Virus record (IMG/VR): IMGVR_UViG_3300044673_000581
Span: 1 to 26,058 of that record
Source of the DNA: a virus
Direction: 5' to 3' (one strand)
Length of the DNA stretch: 26,058 bases
Position numbers and translations under genes: made by a program. The stretch's first letter is position 1; every line of letters starts with the position of its first letter. Shown here piece after piece: positions 4,548 to 26,058 of this stretch. The notes beneath the pieces were generated by a model that ran no database searches, was not told the DNA's origin, and was given only the letters and a program-made list of their open reading frames with translations.

Positions 4548-4906
4548 TACACCACCTCTTTGAATGTTTCGAAGCTGACCTTGCGACCATCGGCCTGAGT
4601 AGCCTCCACCAGGATTTTCAGCCGGTGGAGATCACTGCTGCGGTCCCGTTCGGTGGTGACCTCGATCGCTATTGCCCGGCCACTGTCGACAAGCCACTGC
4701 AGGGCGCGCTTGCAGTCTTCGCGGATCAGTCGGGCGGTGCTCTCGGTGTTTTTCAGGCGGCCGCGATCGCGCAGGCCGAAGTTCGGATTCAACCACCAGG
4801 AGCCCTGCTTGATGGCCAGGCTAAGAAAGATATTGTTAAAGATATCGCCGGCCTTGATAAAGGTCTGCTCGGGCTGATTACTGGCGATGACGATGGCAAA
4901 ATCCAT
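4547..4906 (-). CDS. Phage GP46 family baseplate protein (gpW/gp25-like)
   Basis: A 119-aa protein with the gp46 signature: WWLNPNFGLRDRGRLKNTEST around residues 37-57, followed by CKRALQWLVDSGRA and a beta-rich end. This is the small wedge subunit that nucleates sheath polymerisation in Mu-like tails. It is joined to gp45 upstream and gp47 downstream by TAATG overlaps, giving strict co-translation. Confidence 0.92.
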   Translation of the reverse strand: MDFAIVIASNQPEQTFIKAGDIFNNIFLSLAIKQGSWWLNPNFGLRDRGRLKNTESTARLIREDCKRALQWLVDSGRAIAIEVTTERDRSSDLHRLKILVEATQADGRKVSFETFKEVV

Positions 4907-5472
4907 TACATCTGCTCCGTTGGCGCCGGGCCGCTGCTGTGATGATGGCCGTTGTATGTGGCGCGCATGCCGGCCATGGTCTTTGCTCCTGCGGCATCGG
5001 CAATATTGCCGGCAGCGGTAATGTTCTCGCCGGCAGTGATGCTGCCGGTCACTGCCAGGAGCGGTGTGGCAAGGGTGACTTTCGTGGTTGCCACGACGGT
5101 CACCTCCGGAGAGATGACCGTCGTGCTGACGGTGGCGGTGATTTCGGCGACCTTGGTGGTGGCGATGATCTTCTCGCCGCCTGTAATCTCGATGACGCGA
5201 TCGCGTTTCAGGTGAATCTTGTCTCCCTCGTCGGTATAGAGGGCGACCTCGCCATTCTCCAGGCTGATCCGGTAGCGGCGGTCATCAGAGGCGATGGCGA
5301 TGAAGTGATTGCCCTGGCGAATAAAGATGACTTCGGCGCCGGCCAGCGGGCGACTGGTGAAGCCGTAATCCTGGATAAACTCGCGGTTGTCGATCTCCTC
5401 GCCGGGACGGCCAAAGGCGGAGACGCGCTGAATGACTCCCTGGATAACGCTCTTGACAATGCCCCTGATCAT
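4906..5472 (-). CDS. Baseplate central spike protein (Mu gp45, gpV-like)
   Basis: This 188-aa protein is the membrane-piercing spike at the tip of the contractile tail. The N-terminal half (about 1-90) is an OB-fold-like domain (AFGRPGEEID, GYTSRPLAGAEVIFI-type strands). The second half is a run of short Val/Thr-rich beta strands forming a triple beta-helix. It ends in YNGHHHSSGPAP, a His-rich apex of the kind that binds iron at spike tips. It overlaps the gp44 gene by ATGA. Length is close to Mu gp45 (197 aa). Confidence 0.92.
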   Translation of the reverse strand: MIRGIVKSVIQGVIQRVSAFGRPGEEIDNREFIQDYGFTSRPLAGAEVIFIRQGNHFIAIASDDRRYRISLENGEVALYTDEGDKIHLKRDRVIEITGGEKIIATTKVAEITATVSTTVISPEVTVVATTKVTLATPLLAVTGSITAGENITAAGNIADAAGAKTMAGMRATYNGHHHSSGPAPTEQM

Positions 5473-6539
5473 ACGGCCACCAGCCCCGGCGGGCCGAGCT
5501 TCAGCTCGGTGATGCTCCCCTGCTGTTTGCTCCGCTTGAGCTTGCGGTTGTACACCAGGTAGATGCCGTTCTTGCCCAGCATCTCGTCGCGCACCTGGGC
5601 CAGCTCGTTGACCTTGAAGTTTATGCCGTTCTGGCTGTGGCCGGGGGCTATATAGGTCAGCTGGTAGCCATCATGGCGCTGCTTTTCCAGGAGCATCCGG
5701 GCATAGAGTTTGGGGCTTTGCGAGTCGTTGTTCAGCTTGGTGACGAACGGCTTGTGAAACGGGAAGCTGTCGTCAGTCACGGTTGCCTTGACGTTGATCT
5801 TGGCGGCATTCATGCCGAAATCATCCTCGCCTTGCACCTGGCTAATGACGGTGATCCGCGAGTAGCGGCGGGAGATGTCGTCGACCTCGTCGCCGGATTC
5901 GACATTATTTCCCTGGCCGGAGATGGTGTTGATGAGCTGGAACATTGGCTGTCCCTTGGCCTTGGGCCGGCCGAAGAGCAGGGTGCCATCGGGGAGGCTG
6001 AAGAACATCAGGCCACGGCTGGCGGCATAGATGGAGAGGACTTCGAAGACGGTCATGCCCGGCTCGATCTGGGAGAGCTTCTGCGGGGTATCCATGAAGC
6101 CGGTCAGGGGATTGTCGACGCTCTTCTTCTTTCCCTTCAGTTTGCCGACGACGTTTTCCTGATAAATGATCTGCTTGCGGTTGATGAACGGCATTGCCTT
6201 CAGGAGCAGCTCGGCCAGTTGCTTGACGGTCTTGCCCTGGACGGTGATAAAATTCTCGGCGTAGGAGTCGACAATCAGGCCGTTCAGGTCGCGCCCCTCG
6301 ATGACCAGGGTTTGTCCCTGCTTGCTCCAGCCTTTGCGGGGTGCGTCGATAATGCCGGACAGCTCCAACTGGTCATTGACGTACAGCTGACAGAGCATGC
6401 CGGCGGTGATGGCGGTGCCGGGGTTGGCCAGCTCCAGAGTGAACTTGTCGGCGGCCTGGTACAGGTCGGCCTCCACCTCGTAGCTGAGGAAGTTCTCGAC
6501 CCGTTTGCCGGCTATCTGCAGGTAGACTTTATCTTCCAT
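5469..6539 (-). CDS. Baseplate hub protein (Mu P, gp44; gpD-like)
   Basis: A 356-aa hub protein of the gp44/gpD type: N-terminal VYLQIAGKRVENFLSYEVEAD, then EGRDLNGLIVDSYAENF (about 100-116), a LysM-like middle segment with PGMTVFEVLSIYAASRGL, and a C-terminal RMLLEKQRHDGYQLTYIAPGH domain. It connects the tape measure/tube to the gp45 spike. TAATG overlap with gp43 and ATGA overlap with gp45. Confidence 0.93.
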   Translation of the reverse strand: MEDKVYLQIAGKRVENFLSYEVEADLYQAADKFTLELANPGTAITAGMLCQLYVNDQLELSGIIDAPRKGWSKQGQTLVIEGRDLNGLIVDSYAENFITVQGKTVKQLAELLLKAMPFINRKQIIYQENVVGKLKGKKKSVDNPLTGFMDTPQKLSQIEPGMTVFEVLSIYAASRGLMFFSLPDGTLLFGRPKAKGQPMFQLINTISGQGNNVESGDEVDDISRRYSRITVISQVQGEDDFGMNAAKINVKATVTDDSFPFHKPFVTKLNNDSQSPKLYARMLLEKQRHDGYQLTYIAPGHSQNGINFKVNELAQVRDEMLGKNGIYLVYNRKLKRSKQQGSITELKLGPPGLVAV

Positions 6540-7876
6540 TAAACCTGCCCTCCGGGGCGCCCATAGATCTGCACCTCGCCGCTAGTGAAATTGGGGTTTT
6601 TAATGGCATTGATGGAACTGATCCGCTCGGCATAGTTATAGTCGAGCCCGTAGCGGTGGCAGACGATATGCAGCGGCATGGGGTTATCGAGGGCAACGGT
6701 GATGATCTTGTCCCGCTCGAGCTTAATGGTGTTGATGTGCTCGAGGAGACTACGAGCCATATCCTTGATACTGGGCACGTCGCGGGCGGCATCCACTCCC
6801 TGCTGCAAATACGTCCGGACCAGAGCCAGGCTTTGCTCCAGTTCGGTGACGTTCATCACCATGACGGTGGGGGCAGTGCCCTGGTAGCGGCCAAGGATAT
6901 CGAAGCTCTTGCCGGCTTCGATACGGCGCAGATCCTGACGGGCGGTTTCATCAGCCCGATAAAAGGTTGCCGTCTCCAGGGCCAGCCGGCGGGCAGCGGC
7001 AACTTTCAACTGCCGGCCGAGGATGGCGCGGACACTGCCGGAGGCTCGGGAGTGAGCCGGGGAAAAAGAAAGAAATGCCTGCTCGAGCTTACGCAGTTCA
7101 AAGTCAAGATTGCTGATAATTCTGGCCGGAGCCGCGAGCGTCCCGGTGACGAGCAAGGCGGTTCGTTCGACGGCGCGAGTGATGCTGCCGATGACCCGGC
7201 CGGGCAGGCTGGTGCCGTAGGCGACACTGGCCACCAGGGAGTTAACCGGATTGGTCAGCTCGACCACGGTAGCATTAAAAGCGGCTACGCTGGTGTCGAT
7301 CTCCTTGATCACCTCACGGCTATAGCGGGCGGCAACATTCAGCTGCTCATAGAGGCTTTTGCCTTCATCGAGCGCCACGTCCAGGAATCCCTTGTCCTCG
7401 GCCAGCACCAGCCCCAGCTCGGCGGCCAGGCTTGCCTGCTGTTCTTCTTCGCCAAACAGGAACGCTTCTTCGGCGACAGCCTCAACGTCTTCGTAGTTAA
7501 TATCGGCGATGGTGCCGCGCAGGTTCTCGATAAAGGAGAGGTCGATCTCGGCGGTCATTTCCCGGTCGTCATGGCGGACGGAGACCCGCTCGACCATCCC
7601 GGCCATGACGCCGTACTGGGGATGGATCAGCTCGGACAGGGCGGTGCTCTTCAGGTGGTTGAGGAAGTCGATGTGGTCGGCGTAGGTCTGGTGGTCGCCG
7701 TGGTCCCAGAAGTAGCAACGGATACTGACAGTCCGCGCCTTTTGCCCCATGTCTTCCAGGAGGGCGCCGTCCTGTTTCGGGAATTCGTGACGGGCGATCG
7801 CCTTTTCGAAGGTGTCGTCGAGGGTCTCGATCTCCAGGGGGTAGCCGTCCAGCTTTGCCGGGTAGAGGTCTTCCAT
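6539..7876 (-). CDS. Tail/DNA circulation protein N (Mu gp43)
   Basis: A 445-aa protein of the DNA-circularisation N family. The N-terminal domain (about 1-90) has the typical FEKAIARHEFPKQDGALLEDMG and RTVSIRCYFWDHGD segments. A long alpha-helical middle follows, then a C-terminal LysM-like stretch (PLHIVCHRYGLDYNYAERI, about 395-415). In Mu-like phages N lies between tape measure and hub and is required for the tail tip. The ATG comes one base after the tape-measure stop. Confidence 0.9.
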   Translation of the reverse strand: MEDLYPAKLDGYPLEIETLDDTFEKAIARHEFPKQDGALLEDMGQKARTVSIRCYFWDHGDHQTYADHIDFLNHLKSTALSELIHPQYGVMAGMVERVSVRHDDREMTAEIDLSFIENLRGTIADINYEDVEAVAEEAFLFGEEEQQASLAAELGLVLAEDKGFLDVALDEGKSLYEQLNVAARYSREVIKEIDTSVAAFNATVVELTNPVNSLVASVAYGTSLPGRVIGSITRAVERTALLVTGTLAAPARIISNLDFELRKLEQAFLSFSPAHSRASGSVRAILGRQLKVAAARRLALETATFYRADETARQDLRRIEAGKSFDILGRYQGTAPTVMVMNVTELEQSLALVRTYLQQGVDAARDVPSIKDMARSLLEHINTIKLERDKIITVALDNPMPLHIVCHRYGLDYNYAERISSINAIKNPNFTSGEVQIYGRPGGQV

Positions 7877-9595
7877 TTACATCCCCTCGGTGGTAGTCAG
7901 GGCCTCGAAAAAGCTGCCCCGCTTGCTGCCGACATTGGCTCTGGTGTTCATATCGTTACTTCGAGCGAACATGCGGCCGTTGCCGTCGATCTGCAGGTCG
8001 ATCTTGATTTCGTTTTTAGTCCCTGCAGATCTCTTGCCGCCGATGCCCATGACTTCGTATTCCGTGGAGTTATGGCCGAAGGTCTGGCCGGCCCAGCCGT
8101 TGCGCCGCTGGGCGTCGCTGATCACCTTGGCGACGATTGGCGCGGTGGCCAGGGCGGTCGGCAGGGCAAAAACGGACAGGCCGGCAACGGTGGCCGCGCC
8201 GCCGGGACCGGGAACAATGCCGGGCAGGCTGCCGCCGGCGGGCCAGTTGGTGACAAAGACCGGGGTGACGCCGGCGGCCGCTTCCAGGGCCTTGCCTTCG
8301 GCGACGCCGACGGCGGTGCTCCCCCCCTTGGCCAGCAGCCGGGAGGCCATGGCGCCGATGGCCTTGCCGCCGTAGCGGGCGGTGAGCAGTGTGCCGATCG
8401 CAATTGCTGCCCCGCCGCCGAGCATTTCCTTGCCGGAGAGGTCGAGGCCGCCATTCTTCTTGCTGTCCATGGTCCACTGGACCAGGTCGGCAAGCGTCTT
8501 GTTGATCGGCTGGGCAAAGCCGTCGGCGGCTTCGCGCAGGCTGGCCTTCAGGCGGCCGGACTGGTCGACGGCATTGGCGACGGCGTCGGGCAGATCCCGC
8601 TGCAGGGTGCCGGAAGCGGAACCGATCTTTTGGGTGAAGTCGCGGACCTTGTTCAGCGAGTCGCCGGAGAGGAGCGTCCTGATCCCCTTGATCGTGTCGA
8701 GATCGGCTTTGCCGAATGCCGCCTGGATGAAGGTGGCCCGCTGCTTGTCATTCTTGAGGGTGTCCCACTTCTTCTTCATGTCCGCGAGGACGGCGACCGG
8801 GTCGCGGCGGCTGCCGTCGCTGGCGAAGAACTGGACGCCGGTCCCTTTCTGGGCGGCGGCCATGTAGCGCAGGTTGGTGAAGACGCGCATGGTGGAGTCG
8901 GCCAGGGTGGCGAGCCGCTCCGGCTCGCGCTCGACCATGGACAGCGCTTCGATGAAGCCGAGGGTGCTGTCGAAGCCGAAGTTGGCGGATTTGGCGTTGA
9001 CGCCGACGCGGGCGAAGATGCCGGAGAGATTGTTCAGCTCGGCATTGCCCAGCCGGCCGGCGACGGTCATTTTGTCCAGCAGCTCCAGCGCCTTGCCCGG
9101 TTGCTCCAGGTCGATCTCGAAGGCGGTGGCGCCGACGGTGAGTCCGCCGGCGAGGACGCTCCCCTGGGCGCCGGTGACCGCCGAGGCGATGTTGATCCCC
9201 TTGGTGGACTCCAGGGCGGCCTTCCAGCTCTGTCCCGACTGGATCAGGTTGTCGAAGCCGTCCTTCAGCCCTTCCACCTGCTGGCCGGTATCTTTGGCCA
9301 TGAGGAAAAATTCGCGGCGGAGCCCCTTGACCATCGCGGCCCCTTCGCCGGCGGTCTGGCGGACCTGGGTGAGCCCCTTGTCCAGGTGCGCCGACTGGGA
9401 AAGCTGCTGGATGACGCCGATGGAAACGCCGATCCCGGCCAGCTTGCCCTGGAGCGAACCCATGGCCCCCTTGAGGGTGTCGAATTCGCGGCGGGCGCCC
9501 TGGGTAAAACGCGAGACGGCATTCTTCGATTCGCCCATCTCGCGCTTTAACCCGCTGGCATTGGCCAGTATTTGCAGGAACAGCTTCATGTCCAT
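7877..9595 (-). CDS. Phage tail tape measure protein
   Basis: The 572-aa protein fits a tape measure by position (between tail chaperones and N) and composition: helical N-terminal half with Gln/Lys/Ser-rich segments (MGESKNAVSRFTQGARRE), a TP901-type region with GLTQVRQTAGEGAAMVKGLRREF around 75-97, and a Gly/Ala-rich hydrophobic part around 400-500. Two in-frame ATGs lie six bases apart (9595, 9589). Neither has a clear ribosome site, which is unusual here; the leader directly upstream is occupied by the 9619-9683 repeat. Confidence 0.88.
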   Translation of the reverse strand: MDMKLFLQILANASGLKREMGESKNAVSRFTQGARREFDTLKGAMGSLQGKLAGIGVSIGVIQQLSQSAHLDKGLTQVRQTAGEGAAMVKGLRREFFLMAKDTGQQVEGLKDGFDNLIQSGQSWKAALESTKGINIASAVTGAQGSVLAGGLTVGATAFEIDLEQPGKALELLDKMTVAGRLGNAELNNLSGIFARVGVNAKSANFGFDSTLGFIEALSMVEREPERLATLADSTMRVFTNLRYMAAAQKGTGVQFFASDGSRRDPVAVLADMKKKWDTLKNDKQRATFIQAAFGKADLDTIKGIRTLLSGDSLNKVRDFTQKIGSASGTLQRDLPDAVANAVDQSGRLKASLREAADGFAQPINKTLADLVQWTMDSKKNGGLDLSGKEMLGGGAAIAIGTLLTARYGGKAIGAMASRLLAKGGSTAVGVAEGKALEAAAGVTPVFVTNWPAGGSLPGIVPGPGGAATVAGLSVFALPTALATAPIVAKVISDAQRRNGWAGQTFGHNSTEYEVMGIGGKRSAGTKNEIKIDLQIDGNGRMFARSNDMNTRANVGSKRGSFFEALTTTEGM

Positions 9596-9618
9596 TTTTA
9601 ACGTCCGTGTTAGAGGCC

Positions 9619-9683
9619 GGGATCGGGGATCAGGGATCGGTAAAGGCTTTCGGTTTTCCTGGTCCCCGGTCCCTGGTCCCGGC
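9619..9683. repeat. Palindromic heptad element, GGGATCG flavour
   Basis: On the plus strand the left arm is GGGATCG, GGGATCA, GGGATCG (9619-9639). A loop begins TAAAGGCTTT, and the right arm is CTGGTCC, CCGGTCC, CTGGTCC (9659-9679), an imperfect reverse complement of the left. The arms differ only by transitions. It fills the gap between the frameshifted chaperone stop (9686) and the tape-measure start. The loop closely matches that of the 10548-10625 element, although the arms use a different heptad. Confidence 0.85.
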
Positions 9684-9685
9684 TT

Positions 9686-9838
9686 TTATGGTTTTTTCTT
9701 TCCGCGGACCTTGTACTTCTTCGGTTTATCCGGATTGAGGATCTCGTTGTAGGCGATCAGGTAGGCGTCGCCTTCATCGATGGCCAGGGCTTCAATCTCG
9801 GCCTTGTTTAGCCCCAGCTTCAGGAGCGCCAGTTCCTT
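9686..9838 (-). CDS. Frameshift extension of the tail assembly chaperone (Mu gp42-like)
   Basis: A 50-codon frame with protein-like composition (KELALLKLGLNKAEIEALAI, then DEGDAYLIAYNEI and a Lys-rich end) overlaps the gp41 end in a different frame. It has no ribosome site of its own. Its only ATG (9895) would translate the overlap as a low-quality out-of-frame peptide. Tail chaperone pairs are commonly produced by programmed frameshifting, and Mu gp41/gp42 is a reported -2 case. A -2 slip at 9837-9841 would yield a product of about 159 aa. It lies directly before the tape measure, as expected. Confidence 0.72.
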   Translation of the reverse strand, partial: KELALLKLGLNKAEIEALAIDEGDAYLIAYNEILNPDKPKKYKVRGKKKP

Positions 9839-10163
9839 TTTCCGCTGCGGCTTGTGCCGCGCTTCGAAAGTTGGCCCGCTGGGTCTCCAGGGCATTAATC
9901 TTATTTATCAGCATAGCGGTATCAAGACCGGAGAGGTCAAGGACCATCTCCGGAGTGACCTTGGCAATACCTTTGACTTTGAGACGCTTGGCATATTTAC
10001 AGGCGTCGTAATAAACTTCATCTTCCAAGAGGCTGTTATCAATGTCCGGATCGTGAGCGACCTCCAGGGTGGTGCGGAAGGTCTGTTCCACCAGGGTGAA
10101 TTCAGTGCAGATCTTGCCGTCTTTGGAGATGATCCCTTCCGGGAAGGTGCCGGTCACTTGCAT
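9792..10163 (-). CDS. Tail assembly chaperone (Mu gp41 family)
   Basis: A 123-aa protein lying between the tail tube and the tape measure, which is the gp41 position. The text fits the family: VEQTFRTTLEVAHDPD in the N-terminal half, ACKYAKRLKVKGIAKVTPEMVLDLSGLD in the middle, and a low-complexity Ala/Gly tail (AAQAAAEKGTGAPEAGAK) after the slip site. It coats the tape measure during tube assembly. AGGAG stands 6 bases before the ATG, and the gene starts three bases after the tube stop. Confidence 0.88.
   Translation of the reverse strand: MQVTGTFPEGIISKDGKICTEFTLVEQTFRTTLEVAHDPDIDNSLLEDEVYYDACKYAKRLKVKGIAKVTPEMVLDLSGLDTAMLINKINALETQRANFRSAAQAAAEKGTGAPEAGAKQGRD
9836..9842 (-). other. Candidate -2 slippery site
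   Basis: The minus strand reads GAAAAAG. In the gp41 frame the codons are GAA AAA. If the AAA tRNA slips back two bases it still pairs perfectly with AAA, and the next codons are AAG GAA CTG, exactly the frame of the downstream chaperone ORF. A -1 slip would hit a stop within six codons, so only -2 (or +1) gives a useful product. Confidence 0.6.
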
Positions 10164-10166
10164 GGC

Positions 10167-10526
10167 TTACTCCTGGACCCGGCCGGCGGCGATAAACTTG
10201 ATGTCCTTGGTGGCTTCCTTGTCTCCGTCATACTTGACGGTGCCGATCTCGAGGACCGAGACGCCGGTAAAGGTGGTGCGGCTGCCGTTCTCGTAATCGA
10301 CAACAAAGGTGCCGTCCTGGACAGAGTCAAAATCAAACTCCGGCTTGTTCTTGGGGACCACGTAGCCGACGGTGAAGCCGAAGGCCGGGGTAACACCCAT
10401 GATGCCGGTTTTCTTCATCAGTTTGACGGCCTTGCGCAGGACGCGGGCGTCCTCCTCGAAGGTACTGAAGTCATCGAGGGCCTGGCCGTTGCATTCCAGT
10501 GAGACGGTTGAGACGTATTCATCCAT
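10167..10526 (-). CDS. Tail tube protein (Mu M, gp40)
   Basis: A 119-aa protein; Mu M is 118 aa. It begins MDEYVSTVSLECNGQALDDFSTFEEDAR, typical of tube proteins of Mu-like phages, and ends in a beta-rich domain with GSRTTFTGVSVLEIG. I used the ATG at 10526 because AAGGAG precedes it by 7 bases; the longer open frame upstream only translates the heptad repeat. It polymerises as the inner tube of the contractile tail under the sheath encoded just before it. Confidence 0.92.
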   Translation of the reverse strand: MDEYVSTVSLECNGQALDDFSTFEEDARVLRKAVKLMKKTGIMGVTPAFGFTVGYVVPKNKPEFDFDSVQDGTFVVDYENGSRTTFTGVSVLEIGTVKYDGDKEATKDIKFIAAGRVQE

Positions 10527-10547
10527 GGTTAAACTCCTTTTAAAGGC

Positions 10548-10625
10548 GGTGATTGGTGAGCGGTGAACGGTGAGCGGTAAAGGCTTTTGACCTTCCCGTT
10601 CACCGTTCACTGTTCACCGTTTACA
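10548..10625. repeat. Palindromic heptad element, GGTGAAC flavour
   Basis: Plus strand: GGTGATT, GGTGAGC, GGTGAAC, GGTGAGC (10548-10575), a loop starting GGTAAAGGCTTTTGACC, then GTTCACC, GTTCACT, GTTCACC, GTTTACA (10598-10625). The arms are imperfect reverse complements differing by transitions. It fills the gap between the sheath and tube genes. The last heptad contains the sheath stop codon (TAA at 10623-10621 on the minus strand), so the element abuts and slightly enters the coding region. Confidence 0.9.
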
Positions 10626-12045
10626 GTAAAAGATCGATGCGCCCGGCGAAGACGTGCAGGCCGTTGACCACATCGGCCGGTATCTTGGCGTTCAGTCGAT
10701 TCGGGTCCTGGAGATCACGCTCGACAAGCAGTCCGGGAAGATTGGCGGTCACTTCCTCGACGATCTCCAGGTCCTCGAGCTTTTTCAGGACGTCGATCAG
10801 CTCGCTGCGAACCTTTGCGGCGGTCTTACTGGAAAGTTTCTCCCTGGGGAAGCGGAGCGCGATCCGCTCGCGGATTGCCTTGCGGACGTAATCCAGGGTG
10901 CGGATGGTGGTGATGTCCAGGAGCGAGATATCGGCGACGTTGTTGGCGTCCTTCAGGTAGGTGGAGATGGCGCGAACGATCTGGACCTTTTCGCCGGGGC
11001 CGACTTCCAGGGGAGCGGCGCCGTTATTGAGGCAGCTTTCCTGCTCGGTGCGGGTGAGGCGCTGGGCGACCGGCGGCGCGGCGATCCCCTTCAGCTCGAG
11101 GGTATTGAGCGGCCGGGCCGGATCTTCCTCGCCGGCAAGGACGGCGGCAAAGGCGGCGGCGGTTTCAAATGGAATGCTCCTGGTGCCGCGCAGGTAGACG
11201 CCGACGACGCGGCCGGAGTTGATGGCCGTGGCGAGGGTGGTGGCGGTGGCCAGGGCGGTGTCGGTTGCGTAGACGCCGACGCCGGGGCGCTGTTCCATGG
11301 GGCCGGAATAGGTGTCCAGGTGCGTGGCAAGGGTGGCAATGTCCGCCTGGACGTTGAAGGCGGTGGCGATGACATGGTACTGCTCGCCGGCTACCGTTGC
11401 CAGGGCGGTGGCAATGGCCGGGTCGACGGTGCCGCCGGTGAGGGTCGCCGCGCCCAGGGCGCAGGTGGTTGTCTTTGCGGTCAGCTCATAGCTGATGTCG
11501 ATCTGGTTGGCGATGGTTCCCTTGTTGCGGGCAGTGAGGGTGACAACCGCGCCGGCGACGCCGGCGGTGACCGGCAGATCGGCATACTTGGCGATCTCGG
11601 CGTTAAGGTTGGCGGCGACGGTGGCGGCGGCATCGGCATTGGCAATGGCGATCTCCACCAGGCGGTTGCCGATCCAGAGTTTGAGGGAGCCGGCGGAGCT
11701 GGCCACGTTGGCGATGGTGACCGTGGCGGTGGCGGCAGCGCCGGCGCCGTCATCCAGGGCAACCACGGACAGATCCAGGTAGGGATTGGCGGTGATGGCG
11801 GCCCGCACCATCAGGTGGGCGATGGAGCCGGAGCCGAAGTAGAGGGCGGCGTCGGCGTCGCTGAATACCTGGGTCGGGACCAGGGCGGCTACCGTGCCGG
11901 CGGCCAGGCGCTGGCCGATGATCAGCATCCGCTGCAGATTGGCCGGCAGGGTGCGGACGGACAGCTTGGTATTGAATTCGACATACTTGCCCGGCTTACG
12001 GATGCTGCTGGGGATCTGGTCAAAGCTGATGTTCTTGGATGCCAT
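10621..12045 (-). CDS. Contractile tail sheath protein (Mu L, gp39)
   Basis: A 474-aa sheath protein (Mu L is 495 aa). It has FDQIPSSIRKPGKYVEFN at the N-terminus, the QVFSDADAALYFGSGSIAHLMVRA segment around 60-83, an Ala/Thr-rich middle, and a conserved C-terminal domain with YVRKAIRERIALRFPREKL (about 385-403) and DLEIVEEVTANLPGLLVERD. This is the outer contractile tube. It starts in a TAATG overlap with the gp38-like gene, with GGAGG upstream. The Ala/Thr-rich middle has strong GC3 bias, which creates a long spurious open frame on the other strand. Confidence 0.95.
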   Translation of the reverse strand: MASKNISFDQIPSSIRKPGKYVEFNTKLSVRTLPANLQRMLIIGQRLAAGTVAALVPTQVFSDADAALYFGSGSIAHLMVRAAITANPYLDLSVVALDDGAGAAATATVTIANVASSAGSLKLWIGNRLVEIAIANADAAATVAANLNAEIAKYADLPVTAGVAGAVVTLTARNKGTIANQIDISYELTAKTTTCALGAATLTGGTVDPAIATALATVAGEQYHVIATAFNVQADIATLATHLDTYSGPMEQRPGVGVYATDTALATATTLATAINSGRVVGVYLRGTRSIPFETAAAFAAVLAGEEDPARPLNTLELKGIAAPPVAQRLTRTEQESCLNNGAAPLEVGPGEKVQIVRAISTYLKDANNVADISLLDITTIRTLDYVRKAIRERIALRFPREKLSSKTAAKVRSELIDVLKKLEDLEIVEEVTANLPGLLVERDLQDPNRLNAKIPADVVNGLHVFAGRIDLLL

Positions 12046-12221
12046 TACTGGTCACCTCCTGTTTTTTGTTTGCCGAGCGTGGCGGTGATCAGGGACCCGT
12101 CATCCAGAAGCCGGCGGTAATAGGTCGTGTCCGGAACGTCGACCGGGTCGGAGTCGGTGATGTAAGCCCTGGGGTTTGTTTCCATGGGGCACTGGGTGCC
12201 GGGGGTTGATTTTACGAGCAT
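12045..12221 (-). CDS. Small Mu gp38-like protein (DUF2635 type)
   Basis: A 58-aa protein starting MLVKSTPGTQCPMET and ending GDQ, with TTYYRRLLDDGSL at residues 32-44. This matches the short proteins that lie between gp37 and the sheath in Mu-like phages, where a (S/T)xYWRRRLxDGxL segment is typical. Strong AAGGAGG stands 6 bases before the ATG. Its stop overlaps the sheath start (TAATG), so sheath translation is probably coupled to it. Function in the virion is unknown. Confidence 0.8.
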   Translation of the reverse strand: MLVKSTPGTQCPMETNPRAYITDSDPVDVPDTTYYRRLLDDGSLITATLGKQKTGGDQ

Positions 12222-12243
12222 GTGAAGCCTCCTTTATGAATCC

Positions 12244-12257
12244 GTGAACGGTTAAAG
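12244..12257. repeat. Degenerate heptad pair (GTGAACG, GTTAAAG)
   Basis: One GTGAACG copy is followed by GTTAAAG between the gp37-like and gp38-like genes. The second unit contains the stop codon of the gp37-like gene. It looks like a remnant of the repeats at 10548, 12774 and 13249. Confidence 0.5.
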
Positions 12258-12764
12258 AGCAACAACATCGGCGGCATCGGCTACTGCGTCGGCCGGGTCC
12301 TGGAGGTAGTAGGTCAAGCCGACGGTGAGCAGGTCGGTGACCGCTTCATCGTCCTGTTTGTCTATGTAAAATGCGGTGGTGAATTCGAGCAGGTACTCGA
12401 TCACCCCGGCCGTGTATTTTTCTTCGTTGGTGACATCTTTAAAACTCTTCGGCTGCAGGGACTTGATTTCCAGGCCGAGCTTCTGGCCGACCAGCAGGAG
12501 AATGATTCCCTTGACCAGCGGGTTGATCCCCTTGCGGCGGGCTTCCTCTGACTGCATGTTCTTGAACTTGACCAGAACGGAGACGGTGCAGTCCTGGCGC
12601 CAGCTGACTTTCGATACCTGGCTGAACGTCCCCTCGAGGACGGCGACGGCGACGGCGTTGGCGGTGAGCAGTTGCCGGGCGTCCTTTTGCGCGGCGCTGC
12701 TGGTGATGGCGGCGACCTTGTTGGTGATCTCGGCGAGTACTGCTGTTTCGATGGCGGTCAGCAT
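12252..12764 (-). CDS. Mu gp37-like tail protein
   Basis: The 170-aa protein follows the gp36-like gene and precedes gp38/sheath, as gp37 does in Mu. The alternating pattern LTAIETAVLAEITNK, then WRQDCTVSVLVKFKNMQSEEARRKGINPLVKGII and a C-terminal TAGVIEYLLEFTTAFYI strand fits this family, in which the terminal strand region resembles tail terminator/completion proteins. The leader carrying its ribosome site (GGGG about 6 bases before ATG) directly abuts a heptad repeat. Confidence 0.85.
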   Translation of the reverse strand: MLTAIETAVLAEITNKVAAITSSAAQKDARQLLTANAVAVAVLEGTFSQVSKVSWRQDCTVSVLVKFKNMQSEEARRKGINPLVKGIILLLVGQKLGLEIKSLQPKSFKDVTNEEKYTAGVIEYLLEFTTAFYIDKQDDEAVTDLLTVGLTYYLQDPADAVADAADVVAL

Positions 12765-12773
12765 GTGAACCCC

Positions 12774-12801
12774 GGTGAACGGTGAACGGTGAACGGTGAA
12801 A
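12774..12801. repeat. Heptad tandem repeat, GGTGAAC x3-4
   Basis: Plus strand GGTGAAC is repeated three times, followed by GGTGAAA, after a split GTGAACC copy, in the gap between gp36-like and gp37-like genes. Unlike 10548-10625, only one arm is present, so it looks like a half element. Confidence 0.85.
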
Positions 12802-12810
12802 AAGTCATAG

Positions 12811-13236
12811 TCAAAGGCCCTTCATCGAGGTGCGGCTGAAGAGCCGATCGGCGCTGGTGATTTCCGGGCTTTGCTGCGGTTGCACCGGGGTGGTGGCGGC
12901 TACCTCGCCGAGCTTGACGGCGCCCTTGGAGATATCGGCCAGGAGCTTGATGGCATTGCTGCGGTTCTTGTCCCGCACGTCGGGCATGGTCTCGACCCGG
13001 CGGGCATAGAGGTTGTAGATGGCCAGGTCCATGGCCAGCGGCTTGATGATCGCCGGGGCGACGACAAAGGGGACCACGTAGCGGCCGCTGCAGTAGCCAT
13101 CAATGAGGGCGTCGGCATTGGCGATGGCGTCGTTGACCTTGGCTTCGTCGATGACGCCCTGGTTGTCGTCGTCGGTGAGCTGGACGATGACTTCCTCGGG
13201 GATCTGTTGCTTGATGTCGTCGATGGTGCAGTACAT
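12811..13236 (-). CDS. Mu gp36-like protein (DUF1320), head-tail connector type
   Basis: A 141-aa protein with the DUF1320 pattern: YCTIDDIKQQIPEEVIVQLTDD at the start, ANADALIDGYCSGRYVVPF around 39-57, and LAMDLAIYNLYARR around 67-80. Members resemble adaptor proteins at the head-tail joint. GAGGT precedes the ATG. It is the first gene after the terminator at 13277-13307, so its transcription needs read-through or a promoter I cannot identify. Confidence 0.9.
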   Translation of the reverse strand: MYCTIDDIKQQIPEEVIVQLTDDDNQGVIDEAKVNDAIANADALIDGYCSGRYVVPFVVAPAIIKPLAMDLAIYNLYARRVETMPDVRDKNRSNAIKLLADISKGAVKLGEVAATTPVQPQQSPEITSADRLFSRTSMKGL

Positions 13237-13248
13237 TTAGAACCTCGT

Positions 13249-13276
13249 GAACGGTGAACGGTGAACAGTGAACGGT
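13249..13276. repeat. Heptad tandem repeat, GTGAACG x4
   Basis: GTGAACG, GTGAACG, GTGAACA, GTGAACG on the plus strand, running straight into the terminator hairpin. It lies between the gp35-like stop and the gp36-like start and ends about 10 bases before the gp36 ATG. Confidence 0.88.
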
Positions 13277-13307
13277 AAAAAAGGGGCGGGGTTGCCGCCC
13301 CTTTTTT
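13277..13307. terminator. Strong bidirectional rho-independent terminator
   Basis: A perfect 13-bp stem (AAAAAAGGGGCGG with CCGCCCCTTTTTT) and a GGTTG loop. A T-run follows the GC-rich stem on both strands. It begins seven bases after the gp35-like stop codon. Its place inside the late gene row suggests that head and tail genes are transcribed at different levels or that an antiterminator operates. Confidence 0.88.
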
Positions 13308-13314
13308 GTGGTGC

Positions 13315-13626
13315 TTACTCCGGAGCTGCCAGTTCCTGGCGGCGTTTGGCGGCGGCGTCTATGACTCCCTTGCGGGTATCATTGGCGACGATTGTTTCCA
13401 GTGCCTCCAGGGTTGCGGCAGCCAGGATCAGCTCGACGGTTTTGGCGACATTGAGCACTTCGTCCTTGGTACTGCCGGCAACAAGCTCAACGACCAGCAT
13501 CGGCTCTTTCTTCAATACTTCCAACTCAGCAGGGGTGAATTTGTTGTCCGGGTATTCGGTGGCGGCGGCGGGGTGACTGATGCCGCCCCGGCGGAAGCCG
13601 TCTTTTTTAGCGGTGATACGGATCAT
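13315..13626 (-). CDS. Mu gp35-like protein (HI1506-related)
   Basis: A 103-aa protein beginning MIRITAKKDGFRRGGISHP, followed by EYPDNKFTPAELEVLKKEPMLVVE, the pattern of the HI1506-related small proteins found directly after the major head gene in Mu-like phages. The C-terminal half is helical. Perfect AAGGAGG lies 7 bases before the ATG. Likely a minor head-associated protein, but its role is not established. Confidence 0.85.
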   Translation of the reverse strand: MIRITAKKDGFRRGGISHPAAATEYPDNKFTPAELEVLKKEPMLVVELVAGSTKDEVLNVAKTVELILAAATLEALETIVANDTRKGVIDAAAKRRQELAAPE

Positions 13627-13653
13627 GACAGATCCTCCTTAATAAAAGATGGG

Positions 13654-13672
13654 GGCGGGGACTGGCCCCGCC
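13654..13672 (-). terminator. Hairpin after the major capsid gene
   Basis: A perfect 7-bp stem (GGCGGGG/CCCCGCC) with a 5-base loop, about 10 bases after the capsid stop codon. On the minus strand it is followed by ATCTTTTATT, a weak U-tract. It could be a partial terminator or a 3' stabiliser that lets capsid mRNA accumulate above the downstream genes. Confidence 0.6.
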
Positions 13673-13682
13673 GTTAATCAAT

Positions 13683-14729
13683 TTACGCCACTGACCCGTC
13701 GCTGCCGTAGACCAGTTGCCAGAAGCCGTAGCCGCCGGCACAGCGTGCCTCGGCGCCGAACTTGAACTTTTTCCGGCTGAAGACATCGTCGGCCTGGGGG
13801 TCGATCTGCTGGACAAAGACCGGCTTCTTGCGCTCCTGGTAGATGAACGGCTTGACCGGCTTGGTGGTGTCGAGGAGGAAGTAGGCGTCGTCGCTGGTCA
13901 GACGGGCTTCGCAGACCACGGTCATGGTCCCCTTGTAGGGGTTGGGCTTGCCGTCTTCCAGCTTGTCATTCATCATCAGGACATTGGCGATGTCCTCTAG
14001 GGCGGGCGGCACCAGCAGGATGTTGGGGGTGATGTTGAGCGGCCGGCCGTCATCGTCCTTGAATTTCTTCATGGCGGTGCGGGCTGCGCCGAGGGAAGCG
14101 ATCGCCGCGGCCTGGGTGGCGGCGGACAGCTTCTTGGTCCCCTTGTTGCTGACGCTGGCGCCGGCGACGGAATGATCGGTGTCGCACATGTACTGGCCGT
14201 CGTAACAGAGGTTAGTGAAGACTCCGTTAACCAGGTCGGCGACGATCTCGTCGGGGAGCTGCTTGGCGGAGAAGCCGGCGCCTTGAGCCTGGGGTGCGTA
14301 GATGCCCAGCTCGTCGTCGTCGATATCGTTGCGGTCGACTTCCACCGTCGCCTCGAAGTCGTCGTTGGTAATGGTGTAGTTGAACGCGGCCAGTGCTTTG
14401 ATGGTCTTTTCATCGACCCACTTGCGCATGCGGGGGAAGTTTGCCAGCCATTTATAGTCGTTGGTCTTCGAGGTTGACGGGACCAGCATGGCCACTTTCT
14501 GCCAGAACGTGGGGGCGGCCTCGAATGCCTTATTAAAGATAGTCTTCAGGTTAATAAAGACGTTTGCCAGATTGGCGCTGTTAACGATCATGCCGCCGAT
14601 GCCGAAGAATGCCAGGTGGTGGCCGCTGCTGCCGCCAGCCAGGGCGTAGGCTGCGCCGGCCGGATAGAGCAGCACTGACAGGACAAACAGCCCGATCAAT
14701 ACGAAGAAAGTGGAAAAGTGTTTATGCAT
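13683..14729 (-). CDS. Major head (capsid) protein (Mu T, gp34) with hydrophobic leader
   Basis: The 348-aa frame contains a normal gpT protein from residue 47 onward (MIVNSANLANVFINLKTIFNKAFE, 302 aa; Mu T is 305 aa), with the family's WLANFPRMRKWVDEKTIKAL and a C-terminal GAEARCAGGYGFWQLVYGSDG. Upstream and in frame lies a 46-residue segment that looks like a signal peptide: HKH, a hydrophobic stretch at 8-21, AGAAYALA at 24-31 with signal-peptidase-like sites. The best ribosome site by far (AAGGAGG, 8 bases) belongs to the ATG at 14729; the canonical ATG at 14591 has none. Either the capsid protein carries a removable leader or an internal start is used. Confidence 0.93.
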   Translation of the reverse strand: MHKHFSTFFVLIGLFVLSVLLYPAGAAYALAGGSSGHHLAFFGIGGMIVNSANLANVFINLKTIFNKAFEAAPTFWQKVAMLVPSTSKTNDYKWLANFPRMRKWVDEKTIKALAAFNYTITNDDFEATVEVDRNDIDDDELGIYAPQAQGAGFSAKQLPDEIVADLVNGVFTNLCYDGQYMCDTDHSVAGASVSNKGTKKLSAATQAAAIASLGAARTAMKKFKDDDGRPLNITPNILLVPPALEDIANVLMMNDKLEDGKPNPYKGTMTVVCEARLTSDDAYFLLDTTKPVKPFIYQERKKPVFVQQIDPQADDVFSRKKFKFGAEARCAGGYGFWQLVYGSDGSVA

Positions 14730-14760
14730 GGTTAAAGCCTCCTTGAAATGGTGGTTAAAG

Positions 14761-15165
14761 TTATTCGACCCAGACGCCGTCTGCTTCGACGCCGACGACC
14801 TTGCCGGCCGCCGACTGGGTGTTGCCGCCGGCATTGGTCTTACTGACAGTCTCGTCGTCGGTGATGTAGCAGGTTTTGCCCAGCTCGGCCTGGGTGACCA
14901 GGTCGCCGGCGGCATTCTTCCACTTGAACGCTTTTTTGCGGCGGACGAGGATGGTTTTGGCGCCATCGGCTCCGCCGGTGTTGTCCTTGTACTCTTCGGC
15001 GCGGCCCAGGTAGGTGAGCGTGGTGGCGGTGGCGCCGGGAGTGGCGAAGCCGGTGGCGTTGGCGGCCACCAGTGAGCCGGCATATATCTTTTTGTTGGCG
15101 GCCATGGGGACGGCGATCACTTCGCCGTCTTTGAGCGGGGTATTGCGGTCAGCTGCGAGAGCCAT
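14761..15165 (-). CDS. Capsid decoration-like protein
   Basis: The 134-aa protein lies between the protease/scaffold gene and the major head gene. It has the beta-rich pattern MALAADRNTPLKDGEVIAVPMAA, KIYAGSLVAANATGFATPG, TLTYLGRAEEYKDNTGGADG and a final VVGVEADGVWV, typical of the decoration/cement-type proteins found there in Mu-like phages. AAGGAGG is 7 bases before the ATG. The exact virion role is inferred from position and fold type. Confidence 0.78.
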   Translation of the reverse strand: MALAADRNTPLKDGEVIAVPMAANKKIYAGSLVAANATGFATPGATATTLTYLGRAEEYKDNTGGADGAKTILVRRKKAFKWKNAAGDLVTQAELGKTCYITDDETVSKTNAGGNTQSAAGKVVGVEADGVWVE

Positions 15166-15192
15166 GGTGAATCCTCCTTAGTGGTCGGTTGA

Positions 15193-15687
15193 TTATTGGT
15201 CGCCGTATTTCTTGATATCCTCGGCGGTGTTGCCAAACATTTCGGCGATTTTCAATTGTTCGGCATTCAGCGCGGTGGTTTTATCGTCAGCATTCTTGCC
15301 GTCCAGGTTACTGTCGGCGCCGACGACCGGCGCGACCTTGACGAATTCGCGGAAGCGGTCGAGCCCGCCTTCCTGGCGGCAGGTGGCGATGTGGTGCTCT
15401 TTGGTGGCGGGGGTGATCTTGCCGGCGGCCAGGGCAGCGTCGATCTCGCTGTTGATCGCCTTGTCCAACTGCTCGTCCTTGATGGTTTTGAGGGACGTCT
15501 CGGCGGTGGTTGCCCGGTTGAGCGCCGTGTCGAAATCTGCCCTGGGAACGAACTTGTCCAGGGGCGGGTGCAGGGCGTGGTTGAGGGCGGTGGCGTGGTC
15601 GGCCTTCAGGGTGGTGATGTGGTTGAGGGCCGCTTCTTCGGTGGTGGTCTCGGGGAGTCCGAGGACTAGCAACAATTTTTTCAACAT
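15193..15687 (-). CDS. Internal scaffold product (Mu Z-like), in-frame start inside gene I
   Basis: Within gene I, AAAGGAGG lies 8 bases before an in-frame ATG at 15687, followed by MLKKLLLVLGLPETTTEEAA. This ribosome site is better than the one of gene I itself and would give a 164-aa protein equal to the scaffold half. Mu makes scaffold Z from an internal start in gene I, so the same layout is expected. Predicted coiled, Ala/Glu/Lys/Thr-rich. Confidence 0.78.
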   Translation of the reverse strand: MLKKLLLVLGLPETTTEEAALNHITTLKADHATALNHALHPPLDKFVPRADFDTALNRATTAETSLKTIKDEQLDKAINSEIDAALAAGKITPATKEHHIATCRQEGGLDRFREFVKVAPVVGADSNLDGKNADDKTTALNAEQLKIAEMFGNTAEDIKKYGDQ

Positions 15688-16209
15688 GGGTAATGCCTCC
15701 TTTTTCTGCTCGTTGTTTAAGGCGGTGAGAAACAAGTTCGGTTGATTGGTAAGCCCGCACGACGTGATGCGGAAGATGCGGTTGGTTTCGACCTCATAAC
15801 GGAAGACCGGCGACAGGTAGCGGTATTCCCTGGCGGTAATGGATGCGGCGCCCTTTTCGGTCCACTCGACCCGGCCCCAGATGCTCCCCCCGTCCCGCGC
15901 CGCCATCTCCTTAATCCAGCCGGCGGCCGGTGAGTCCTTGCCTTCCTTGGCGCGCAGCTCGGAGGAGTGCTCCCAGTCAATGGGAAGATCCTTCCCCTCG
16001 GCGGCGAAGCTCTGCAGGATGATTTCAGGGTGATCGTTGATCCAGGTGCGACCGTCGCGGCCGGTGATGATCTGGCCGGCGGGGAGCAGCTCGATCCACT
16101 CGGGCGCATCGCCGGCGGCAATCTCGAAATTGAGCGCCATGAGGTTGGCGGCCAGCTCGTTACAGAGCGCCGTACTTAAGCTGCTGTCGTCGACTATCAA
16201 AATCCTCAT
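15193..16209 (-). CDS. Prohead protease with C-terminal scaffold (Mu I, gp32)
   Basis: The N-terminal half is the Mu I protease domain: ALNFEIAAGDAPEWIELLPAGQIITGRDGR, LPIDWEHSSE, AAGWIKEMAARDGGSIWGRVEWT and YRYLSPVFRYE. The C-terminal half (after about residue 175) is charged and helical, the scaffold part. The open frame has two ATGs (16212, 16209); AGGGGGG is too close to the first, so 16209 is preferred (338 aa). In Mu the protease removes scaffold during head maturation. The N-terminal ILIVDDSS string looks like a response regulator but nothing else supports that. Confidence 0.92.
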   Translation of the reverse strand: MRILIVDDSSLSTALCNELAANLMALNFEIAAGDAPEWIELLPAGQIITGRDGRTWINDHPEIILQSFAAEGKDLPIDWEHSSELRAKEGKDSPAAGWIKEMAARDGGSIWGRVEWTEKGAASITAREYRYLSPVFRYEVETNRIFRITSCGLTNQPNLFLTALNNEQKKEALPMLKKLLLVLGLPETTTEEAALNHITTLKADHATALNHALHPPLDKFVPRADFDTALNRATTAETSLKTIKDEQLDKAINSEIDAALAAGKITPATKEHHIATCRQEGGLDRFREFVKVAPVVGADSNLDGKNADDKTTALNAEQLKIAEMFGNTAEDIKKYGDQ

Positions 16210-16226
16210 CATCCCCCCTGCGTTTG

Positions 16227-16247
16227 GGGCTTGTTTTCAACAAGCCC
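16227..16247. other. Perfect hairpin upstream of protease/scaffold gene
   Basis: GGGCTTGTT, loop TTC, AACAAGCCC: a perfect 9-bp stem about 18 bases before the gene I start on the minus strand. It lacks a U-tract on the coding strand, so it may be an mRNA processing or translation-control structure. It sits in a 211-bp gap (16210-16420), which is AT-richer than its surroundings and holds no gene I can support. Confidence 0.5.
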
Positions 16248-16951: not shown

Positions 16952-19251
16952 CAGGCTGGCTCGAGTTTGCCGCTGGCCGGATTCAACCAGGACTTGCCGG
17001 GGTTATAATCCCAGCCGGGGTCGATGCCGCGCGGCACGTCGTGGATCTCGCCAGTCTTTTTGTCCAGCCATTCGAAGGTGCCGTCATCGGGTGCCTTGCC
17101 GACGGTGACCCCCTTGCGGGCCAGGTCCCGATCGCTGAGAGCGACGACGCGGCACTTGCAGCCCCAGCCGTTGGGCGTGAAGTGGCTGTCCCACCAGGGG
17201 TCGTTGGCCGGGAGGGTGATCCCGTTCCAGCCCAGGTGCATGGGCCGGGGGCGGATGCTGTCGCCGTGCTGGTACATCCAGTTGGGGCGATAGGCGAGCA
17301 CATCCGGGTCGGTCATCTGCTGGTAGCGGCCGGCCTGGTAGGCGGTGCGGATGTTGGTCTCGTAGATGATCCGGCTGCGCCAGCCGCGCGAGCCGTTATA
17401 GCTCCAGCCGTACTTGGCGACGATGGTGTCGAAGTCTTTGAGGAAGGCAGCCTGGGTGGTGCCGTCGGTGATGGCCTGGTCGATGGCGGCGCGGAAATCG
17501 GCGAGCATGTCGTCGCGCATGACGCCGGCAACGGTGAAGCCGTGGTCATGGTCGCTCTTCCAGAGGTCGGTCCAGGACTGGGCCGGGATGTTGAGCTTCT
17601 GGCGGAAGAAGGCGATCGCTTCGTCGAATGGCAGGCTGCCGTACTGGGCCTCGGCGTTCATGGCCAGGTCGGTCATGATCTCGTCGCGGCCGGTCAGGTT
17701 GGCCAGGAGCATGGCGTTGCCGAGGGTGGCGGCAAGGGGTGCGCTATCGAGCATGTCCGGACGCAGGTTGTTCAGCTGCGTCGACGCTGCTTCCAGGGTC
17801 CTCGCGCCGGCAATGACGTGGTAAAGATGGCCGACCAGGTCGGCGTCGGCGGTGCGGTCCAGGGCCTGGGCCGCGATCAGCTCGGCGGCGTCGGGCGCGG
17901 TTGCTTCCTGGTTAAGGGCGGTGGCGCAGTGGGGGCAAGAATGGCCTTGGTGGTTATTCGCCGTTCCTGATCCCTGATCCCCGATCCCCGGTCCCGGTAT
18001 TCCGAGCAGATCTTCGGGCTTGGCAGTGGCCGGCGGGTCGGGAAGGTTCAGCTTGTCGCGGACGACGCTCTGCTCGACGCGCAGGCCGAGGGGGACGAGC
18101 TTGTCCAGGGCATCAGTCAGGGCCTTGATATCCTCGGATTCCTTGATGTAGAGCTTGAGGGTCGGGTAGCTCTGCTGTGGGCCGAAGTTCAGGTCAACGA
18201 ACGGTTTCACCAGCTGCAGGTTGAGGGTTTCCTCGGCCTGCTCGGCGTCGGATTCGGTGATGTCGCCGCGCACTTCGTTGTGGACGTTGGCCTGGGCCTG
18301 GCTGGAGCCGTCGTCGGCGGTCATGGTCTGGCCGATGACTGCCTTGGAGATCTGCTTGTCGATCCACTCGGCCAGGCTGAGATAGAGCTTGTCGCCGCCG
18401 GTGACCTGGGCGGCTTTCTCGAACTCGATCTTCATGGAGTCTGGGAGCACGGCGGCGGCGTCGCTGCCGATGTTGGCGACGGCGGTCTTCAGGATGCGGA
18501 TGTCGGCATCGGTGGCGTTGGCGCCGTATTTGCCGACGCGCAGCGGCATGCCGAAGATCTCGACAAAGGCCAGCCAGTCCTTGAAGGTGTACATCTTGCC
18601 CATGTAGGACCAGGCGACCAGCCGGGCCAGCCCGCCCCGGATCGGCAGGCCGCTCTTCAGCTTGGGAAAGTGGGTGATGAACTTGTACGGAGGGAGCGCT
18701 ATCCCTTCGAAGCTGTCGGCTTCATCCAGGAGGCGCAGCTGCCGCTGGCTCACCCGGTCAAAGGTGAAGAAACGGGGGTCGCGCCATTCGTACCTGTCGG
18801 GGAACCACTGGCTCGCGGAGCGGTCCCAGATGATTTCTATGGCGCTGTACCCCTTGCCGATGGCGTCGAGCATGTCCTCGGTCAGCCCCTTGAAGCCGGC
18901 GCGCTTGACCAGCTCGCGGACGGCGTCGGCGATCTTCTGGTCGTTGGCGTCGTCGCTGGCAGCCTCGACCATGATCGGGAGCTTCTTAACGGCCCGCTTG
19001 CGGGTACCGAGCACTGAAGCGTAGTGGGGCTCGCGCTCTTCCATCTCTTCAGCCAGGGTGAGATAGTCGTGATTGTCGCCCTGGTTGGCGTTCTGGAGCA
19101 GGCCGGCCAGCCGCTGAGGGGTGAGCCCGGAGGCGACGGTCTCGGTCCAGACGGTGCGGACCCCGGTCAGGCTCGGCGCGGCGTATTCACGGATGAGGTC
19201 TTGCTTCCTGATCGGCTGGTTGTAGGCGTCGTAGAGGGTGACTTCTTTCAT
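16951..19251 (-). CDS. Portal protein fused to minor head protein F (Mu gp29 + gp30)
   Basis: One continuous 766-aa frame covers two Mu genes. Residues about 1-415 are the DUF935 portal core (REPHYASVLGTRKRAVKKLP, GYSAIEIIWD, KFITHFPKLKSGLPIRGGLARLVAWSYMGK, ADDGSSQAQANVHNEVR). Residues about 418-530 are a linker containing heptad-repeat DNA (IPGPGIGDQGSG) and a CPHC pair, then the helical gp29 tail. From about 538 (SLPFDEAIAFFRQKL) the F/SPP1-gp7-like domain begins, with RIIYETNIRTAYQAGRYQQM and GWGCKCRVVALSDRDL. I chose the ATG at 19251, which overlaps the upstream stop (ATGA). The portal forms the DNA entry ring; F is a head morphogenesis protein. Confidence 0.92.
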   Translation of the reverse strand: MKEVTLYDAYNQPIRKQDLIREYAAPSLTGVRTVWTETVASGLTPQRLAGLLQNANQGDNHDYLTLAEEMEEREPHYASVLGTRKRAVKKLPIMVEAASDDANDQKIADAVRELVKRAGFKGLTEDMLDAIGKGYSAIEIIWDRSASQWFPDRYEWRDPRFFTFDRVSQRQLRLLDEADSFEGIALPPYKFITHFPKLKSGLPIRGGLARLVAWSYMGKMYTFKDWLAFVEIFGMPLRVGKYGANATDADIRILKTAVANIGSDAAAVLPDSMKIEFEKAAQVTGGDKLYLSLAEWIDKQISKAVIGQTMTADDGSSQAQANVHNEVRGDITESDAEQAEETLNLQLVKPFVDLNFGPQQSYPTLKLYIKESEDIKALTDALDKLVPLGLRVEQSVVRDKLNLPDPPATAKPEDLLGIPGPGIGDQGSGTANNHQGHSCPHCATALNQEATAPDAAELIAAQALDRTADADLVGHLYHVIAGARTLEAASTQLNNLRPDMLDSAPLAATLGNAMLLANLTGRDEIMTDLAMNAEAQYGSLPFDEAIAFFRQKLNIPAQSWTDLWKSDHDHGFTVAGVMRDDMLADFRAAIDQAITDGTTQAAFLKDFDTIVAKYGWSYNGSRGWRSRIIYETNIRTAYQAGRYQQMTDPDVLAYRPNWMYQHGDSIRPRPMHLGWNGITLPANDPWWDSHFTPNGWGCKCRVVALSDRDLARKGVTVGKAPDDGTFEWLDKKTGEIHDVPRGIDPGWDYNPGKSWLNPASGKLEPA
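17962..17996. repeat. In-frame heptad repeat within the portal gene, GGGATCG flavour
   Basis: On the minus strand: GGGACCG, GGGATCG, GGGATCA, GGGATCA, GGAACGG. It is the same heptad as at 9619-9639, here inside coding DNA, where it specifies the Gly/Pro-rich linker PGPGIGDQGSGT after the portal core. Reading frame is kept. Confidence 0.85.
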
Positions 19252-25737: not shown

Positions 25738-26058
25738 TTACCACCTGTATTCCGCGCCCAGTTGCAGGTGCGCATCGCCGCCGGTCGTGAGGTCGCCGTT
25801 GGCGGATAGATAGACGTTCTTGACCCGGAGAAAATCCCAGCGGCCGTAGACGGTGCCGGTGTTCACCAGGCGCTGGTTGAGGCCATAGCGGATGCCGGCG
25901 GCGGCATCGCGCCTGAACTGGAACCAGGGGGCCGGGATCTCTTTGGCGACGATGGTGGAGACGCCGGTGTCGGCGTCGATAACGCTGATGACGTTGACCC
26001 CGTTGTTGCTGCGGGGGATTTCGGCAGTGGCGGTTATTTCAAGGGGACCGGGGATCGG
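25738..26058 (-). CDS. Partial gene, outer-membrane beta-barrel-like C-terminus
   Basis: The frame is open from the window edge for 106 codons to a TAA at 25740-25738. The visible part shows alternating beta strands: AAGIRYGLNQRLVNTG, VYGRWDFLRVKNVYLSANGD, and a final HLQLGAEYRW with aromatic end, the pattern of outer membrane barrel C-termini. The first visible residues (PIPGP) are encoded by a heptad repeat. The N-terminus lies outside. If it is a barrel, it belongs with the envelope-directed genes that follow. Confidence 0.6.
   Translation of the reverse strand, partial: PIPGPLEITATAEIPRSNNGVNVISVIDADTGVSTIVAKEIPAPWFQFRRDAAAGIRYGLNQRLVNTGTVYGRWDFLRVKNVYLSANGDLTTGGDAHLQLGAEYRW
26043..26058. 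repeat. Heptad repeat at window edge, GGGATCG flavour
   Basis: Plus strand GGGACCG then GGGATCG, probably continuing beyond the window. It is inside the partial gene and in frame (PIPGP on the minus strand). Same flavour as 9619-9683 and 17962-17996. Confidence 0.7.

Follow-up and report, generated by a model that had tools for sequence, protein, structure and literature searches.

We analyzed a 26,058-nucleotide stretch of viral DNA (the window; IMG/VR record IMGVR_UViG_3300044673_000581, positions 1 to 26,058) that is part of a Mu-like phage carrying a portal/Mu F fusion gene, gp36, gp37, sheath, minor tail protein and baseplate J domains. A second contig, L339, is 100% identical over its positions 3410-17220 to window positions 26058-12248 and extends past the window. 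Two palindromic elements lie among the tail genes, and both occupy intercistronic gaps, in agreement with the gene-boundary location given in the initial annotation. Element A (9617..9684, minus strand) fills the gap that separates the tape-measure-type gene from the preceding one, and element B (10554..10621, minus strand) fills the gap between the tail tube and tail sheath genes. Two overlapping frames (9792-10163 and 9686-9895) cover 9686-10163 on the minus strand, between the tape measure and the tube, which is the usual place for a frameshifted tail assembly chaperone pair.

Read on the plus strand, element A is GGGATCG GGGATCA GGGATCG-GTAAAGGCTTTCGGTTTTCC-TGGTCCC CGGTCCC TGGTCCC and element B is GGTGAGC GGTGAAC GGTGAGC-GGTAAAGGCTTTTGACCTTCC-CGTTCAC CGTTCAC TGTTCAC. 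In the sense of the genes, A has GGGACCR units to the left of its core and GATCCCY units to the right, while B has GTGAACR units on the left and GYTCACC units on the right. The cores, which form the loops, are GGTAAAGGCTTTCGGTTTTCC in A (9639-9659, plus strand) and GGTAAAGGCTTTTGACCTTCC in B (10576-10596, plus strand); they are equal in length and identical at 17 of 21 positions, with a naive chance of 1.2e-7. The earlier description of two heptad palindromes with similar loops of equal length is therefore borne out, as is the remark that the two arms of each element differ almost only by transitions, since all arm pairs of the plus strand fold that depart from Watson-Crick pairing are G.T, seven of them in A and six in B. 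The initial annotation had also called the arms of A and B unrelated in flavor, but this does not hold: an ungapped alignment of the entire elements over 65 nt matches at 46 of 65 positions, against 37 at the next best place in the window and a maximum of 35 in 30 shuffles, and the heptads of their arms keep the same register. Starting at the loop, A has GATCRGG(G) as its unit and B has GARCGGT; in this register five of the seven positions are shared between GATCGGG and GAACGGT. Folding z-scores for the plus strand were -6.8 for A and -9.3 for B. The window holds seven period-7 arrays in all, compared with a mean of 0.04 per dinucleotide shuffle.

The phage contains at least four full copies of the element (A, B, F and G). 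The third, F, is a full palindrome of which only the end falls within the window (26044..26058, minus strand); it continues in L339 3348-3424, and its core is GGTACCGGCTTTTTGATTCTCC. The fourth, G (L339 1396-1467), is a hybrid with GGGATCA-type units in one arm and GGTGATC-type units in the other, and its arms match poorly (fold z-scores of -0.4 and -2.5). All four copies can be aligned end to end with one 1-nt indel, and their cores all point the same way with respect to the genes. The common plan, about 65 nt long, is three 7-nt units, a core that in gene sense reads GGRAAR..C..AAAGCC..TACCG, and three roughly complementary units. Units in the same register differ stepwise (GGGACCR, GGGATCR, GGTGATC, GGTGAAC), and the hybrid copy G connects the two arm types through single steps. 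Several single-arm sequences on the plus strand look like half-elements: a four-unit GGTGAAC array at 12773..12800, between the Mu gp37-like and gp36-like genes, which is absent from relatives L340 and L348; a GTGAACG array at 13247..13275, which leads into a GC hairpin that resembles a terminator and has a T tail; and an array of GATCCCY-type heptads at 17966..17995, inside the portal/Mu F-like fusion gene. A further sequence at 12243..12257 (plus strand) looks like a remnant of a GTGAACG arm (CGTGAACGGTTAAAG), and L339 ends beside it. The contig of the window itself ends within a heptad palindrome, and the overlapping L339 breaks near the heptad remnant (window position 12248).

Related phages provided a comparison of the same sites. 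Relative L340, whose DNA is 74-82% identical (about 78%) along most tail genes, has neither A nor B, and the 25 nt between its sheath and tube genes contain a ribosome-binding site only. The site of B is also empty in L347, and gaps of 11-38 nt with only a ribosome-binding site separate sheath and tube in L241, L243, L244, L248-L252 and L257-L260. In five other phages (L240, L245, L254, L255 and L256) the same gap is occupied by palindromes with other arm units, which are GGGACCA/GGGATCC, GGACCTT, AAGGTAG, TTAGCTA and ATTGAAT. A covariance model built from A, B, F and G (model R1) recognized the L240 gap element (E = 2e-10) and did not recognize the sheath-tube palindromes of L254-L256. The sheath-tube gap sequences of L246/L247 and L263 resemble what we take to be known dispersed palindromic repeats. 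No target duplication and no terminal repeats outside the heptad arms could be made out around the phage elements in comparisons with relatives whose identity, only about 78%, is too low to resolve the junctions. In L241, L242, L251 and L252 a small stem in the sheath-tube gap presents the ribosome-binding site, with apparently compensatory variants between phages (TTGAAC-GGAG-GTTCAA and TTAAAC-GGAG-GTTTAA).

The initial annotation had asked whether these elements form a family or reflect a local duplication. Related and variant elements were found between genes in Desulfobacterota, which shows that they are neither confined to the phage nor a local duplication. Among 395 genomes from the phylum to which G002 (Desulfocapsa) belongs, 15 had a triple GGTGAAC array (at most one mismatch), and the reversed control pattern was nearly absent; model R1 matched 32 of 395 Desulfobacterota genomes. 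One copy, L436 of G293, has the core CAGCAAAAGCTTTTGACTTTCCTG, which is close to CGGTAAAGGCTTTTGACCTTCCCG of B. A looser search pattern, GGTAAAGGCTTTN{4,16}TTCC, yielded chance matches, and these were reused as random background. In 396 kb of G023, a genome picked for carrying the array and therefore not typical in density, there were 64 period-7 arrays (162 per Mb), and no other period between 5 and 11 exceeded 12 arrays; the period-7 density at random genome loci was 7.7 per Mb, and shuffled G023 DNA had no such arrays. Across 622 kb of host DNA, 94 of 118 arrays fell outside open reading frames, a fraction that makes up 16% of the DNA by crude ORF calling.

Many of the host palindromes have other heptad units and one build, a tandem-unit arm followed by a core that starts A-rich and ends T-rich and by the complementary arm. 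Heptad palindromes are common in some Desulfobacterota, where they occur as families with conserved loops and varying arms, and copies within families that share a loop differ by one or two whole units (7 and 14 nt). The TCAGC heptads of G023 (L319-L338, for example L336 4053-4206) combine an invariant pentamer with two variable positions next to each other, at which arm-to-arm complementarity looks poor. The variable positions were adjacent in 22 of 28 two-phase G023 arrays, where one third would be expected, and in 7 of 17 from other Desulfobacterota, so this grammar is specific to the family and was rejected as a general rule. A period-8 palindrome in G293 (L495 6994-7081) has ACGCAACG units and a loop that starts with AAAGGCTTTT and resembles the window core, a likeness that may reflect chance or a wider core family.

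One of the host families is a miniature transposon. The TCAGC-heptad palindrome of G023 forms the inner part of a ~154-nt element that is present in dozens of copies (>40 dispersed) and has terminal inverted repeats (CATCCGGAAAC/GTTTCCGGATG) and a target duplication (TGAGGCAG); in sister genomes G126 and G097 the site is uninterrupted and empty. A copy in G061 has a second heptad palindrome of the CCGTT type nested inside it. Turnover at single sites was compared in four species of one genus (G293, G418, G069 and G419) with flanks that are 86-89% identical. In the gap between infB and rbfA (gene names read off the sequence alone), G293 has a GGGACC heptad palindrome and the other three have GGTAAA hexad palindromes, that of G419 with a long hexad array. 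At a second orthologous site, a heptad palindrome is common to G293 and G418, a few substitutions apart, and a different repeat is found in G419 and G069. In G419 (L524, around 1440-1520), TCAGCCT heptads pass uninterrupted into CTTTAC hexads. A dispersed repeat of ~130 nt, seen at L477 5212-5345 in G293 and present in dozens of copies in G293, G418, G419 and G069, turned up at a position that is occupied by heptads in sister species. The replacement of palindromes at one site, both in related phages and in sister species, may represent re-insertion rather than rewriting; replacement by another element fits most of the same-site changes, and rewriting of the arms at an unbroken orthologous insertion was not caught.

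Several other explanations of these elements were considered. Functional RNA hairpins might be kept in certain intercistronic gaps for mRNA processing, stability or attenuation, in which case only pairing would matter, the sequence would turn over freely and heptad slippage would merely lengthen the stem. The elements do fold strongly, and unrelated palindromes do occupy the same sheath-tube gap (in six phages, including that of the window), the same infB-rbfA gap and the same second gap. We nevertheless regard this as unlikely, as most relatives have no hairpin between sheath and tube except the small one around the ribosome-binding site, in the phage family it is the complement of the mRNA strand that folds better, and 34 host palindromes have no consistent strand bias. 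Selection on RNA through G.U pairs was rejected on the same strand comparisons. A scan for Rho-independent terminators (GC stem plus T run in the gene sense) made no call at A or B, and Rfam gave no match above the gathering score, only sub-threshold microRNA-like hairpin matches.

Pure replication slippage, in which slippage and template switching would add heptad arms to a chance small palindrome where it stands, without any mobility, would account for the variation in unit number between copies and for the single-arm arrays in the window, and the published excess of heptamers has been attributed to polymerase slippage (as cited in PMC4692102 and PMC4679880). It fails to account for one core at several sites in a single phage or for the G023 element, which is dispersed in >40 copies and shows terminal inverted repeats and target duplication; already weakened by the shared cores, it appears to us quite improbable as a complete explanation. 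The elements might instead be of the REP/REPIN type, mobilized by a host RAYT (REP-associated Y1 tyrosine transposase), since they are hairpins, intergenic and present in many copies. Long Y1_Tnp genes (about 320-350 aa) are frequent in heptad-rich Desulfobacterota (G105, G023, G045 and others); they occurred in nearly all of the heptad-rich genomes examined and in 0 of 8 heptad-poor ones, a choice of genomes that was not phylogenetically controlled, and the association may be phylogenetic. Set against this suggestive co-occurrence, no heptad palindromes flank the Y1_Tnp genes at 20 loci, heptad-rich G353 has no Y1_Tnp match, and the feet of A and B, read directly, bear no GTAG or CGTC tag. 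The RAYT link was rejected on the flank test, and we consider mobilization of this kind very unlikely.

We think it probable that A and B represent diverged copies of a single non-autonomous palindromic insertion whose arms evolve by slippage and hairpin pairing. Copies would spread via trans-acting machinery or together with miniature transposons such as the G023 family, and would persist mainly in gaps that tolerate them. Replication slippage would homogenize unit number and sequence within one arm, and pairing of the arms in a hairpin, along with fold-back copying, would hold the arms roughly complementary, such that the arm sequence would drift as a whole and the core would remain recognizable. 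Such correction from arm to arm would not be strict, because the arms of copy G are poorly matched. At equivalent pairs in all three units, B differs from the other copies by three T-A versus G-C double changes, which agree with this scheme and are removed by sliding the pair partners; the covariation count, from only 4 sequences, did not beat a shuffle control (134/500). The idea of one mobile family put forward in the initial annotation thus gains from the several copies, the empty sites in a relative and a core that is kept while the arms change; its suggestion that arms are swapped does not extend to a wholesale exchange of unrelated arms within the phage, where units differ stepwise and a hybrid copy exists. 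A dedicated phage function is not needed for these elements, and a hairpin located among the tail genes might influence how the mRNA is processed. A broader possibility, which we hold to be rather doubtful, is a superfamily across Desulfobacterota and their phages, defined by arms of tandem 6-, 7- or 8-nt units, an A-rich/T-rich core and a process that rewrites both arms together. Fold-back or repeat-adding copying on the hairpin would then change the arm sequence and even the unit length, and core, site and architecture would persist.

Parts of this picture are already published. Heptameric simple-sequence repeats have been reported as GGGAATC in Xanthomonas and GGGGAYT in Nostoc (PMC4692102) and as TAACTGA in the Beggiatoaceae (PMC4679880), and Xanthomonas has 70-75 convergent inverted heptamer pairs per genome that vary in length and sequence at conserved positions (PMC4692102). 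The phage elements share with these a 7-nt unit, intergenic location and many copies, and here too tandem units occur well above chance and convergent inverted pairs are present. In contrast, the published heptamers are described with one unit sequence per genome, and the accessible text describes no shared core, empty-site evidence of insertion or phage copies. In Geobacter metallireducens, from the same broad bacterial group, 49 copies of a GGGACCG element with four tandem units are found both between and within genes (PMC2700814), and this unit almost matches the arms of element A; they are reported as direct repeats and predicted regulatory RNAs, and the text consulted does not describe a palindrome, a core or arm variation. 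REP/REPIN elements with RAYTs are likewise dispersed, intergenic, non-autonomous hairpins; they differ in that REPs are 20-40 nt long, carry a GTAG/CGTC tag and lack tandem-unit arms (PMC3116915, PMC3733652), and a RAYT linkage was not found here. The G023 TCAGC family resembles MITEs in its terminal inverted repeats, target duplication and empty sites, whereas in the phage elements no terminal inverted repeats are seen beyond the heptad arms, and a target duplication could not be resolved. Degenerate heptad units that change in copy number also pair into a hairpin in the P6b stem of the Nostoc tRNA-Leu intron, although that stem lies inside a tRNA intron at one locus and is not dispersed (PMC3488679). 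A conserved core with rewritten unit arms, phage copies and orthologous replacement of heptads by hexads were not found in the open-access literature, which is weak evidence of absence.

An overabundance of 7-nt tandem repeats in bacteria has been on record since 2007, and the only guess at its cause was polymerase slippage (as cited in PMC4692102). Many of these repeats are now tied to dispersed palindromic elements with recognizable cores, and phages carry them. Insertion can be seen from the empty sites, and different palindromes turn over at one intergenic site between sister species. Heptad repeats also seem to break metagenome assembly, and the palindromes suggest a reason for breaks at such sites, the window itself ending inside one. 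The elements described here are a vivid new case within a class of bacterial repeats that has been recognized but poorly explained and, because these repeats are tied to dispersed elements for which insertion and turnover can be seen, their origin, spread and arm homogenization become testable through close strains.
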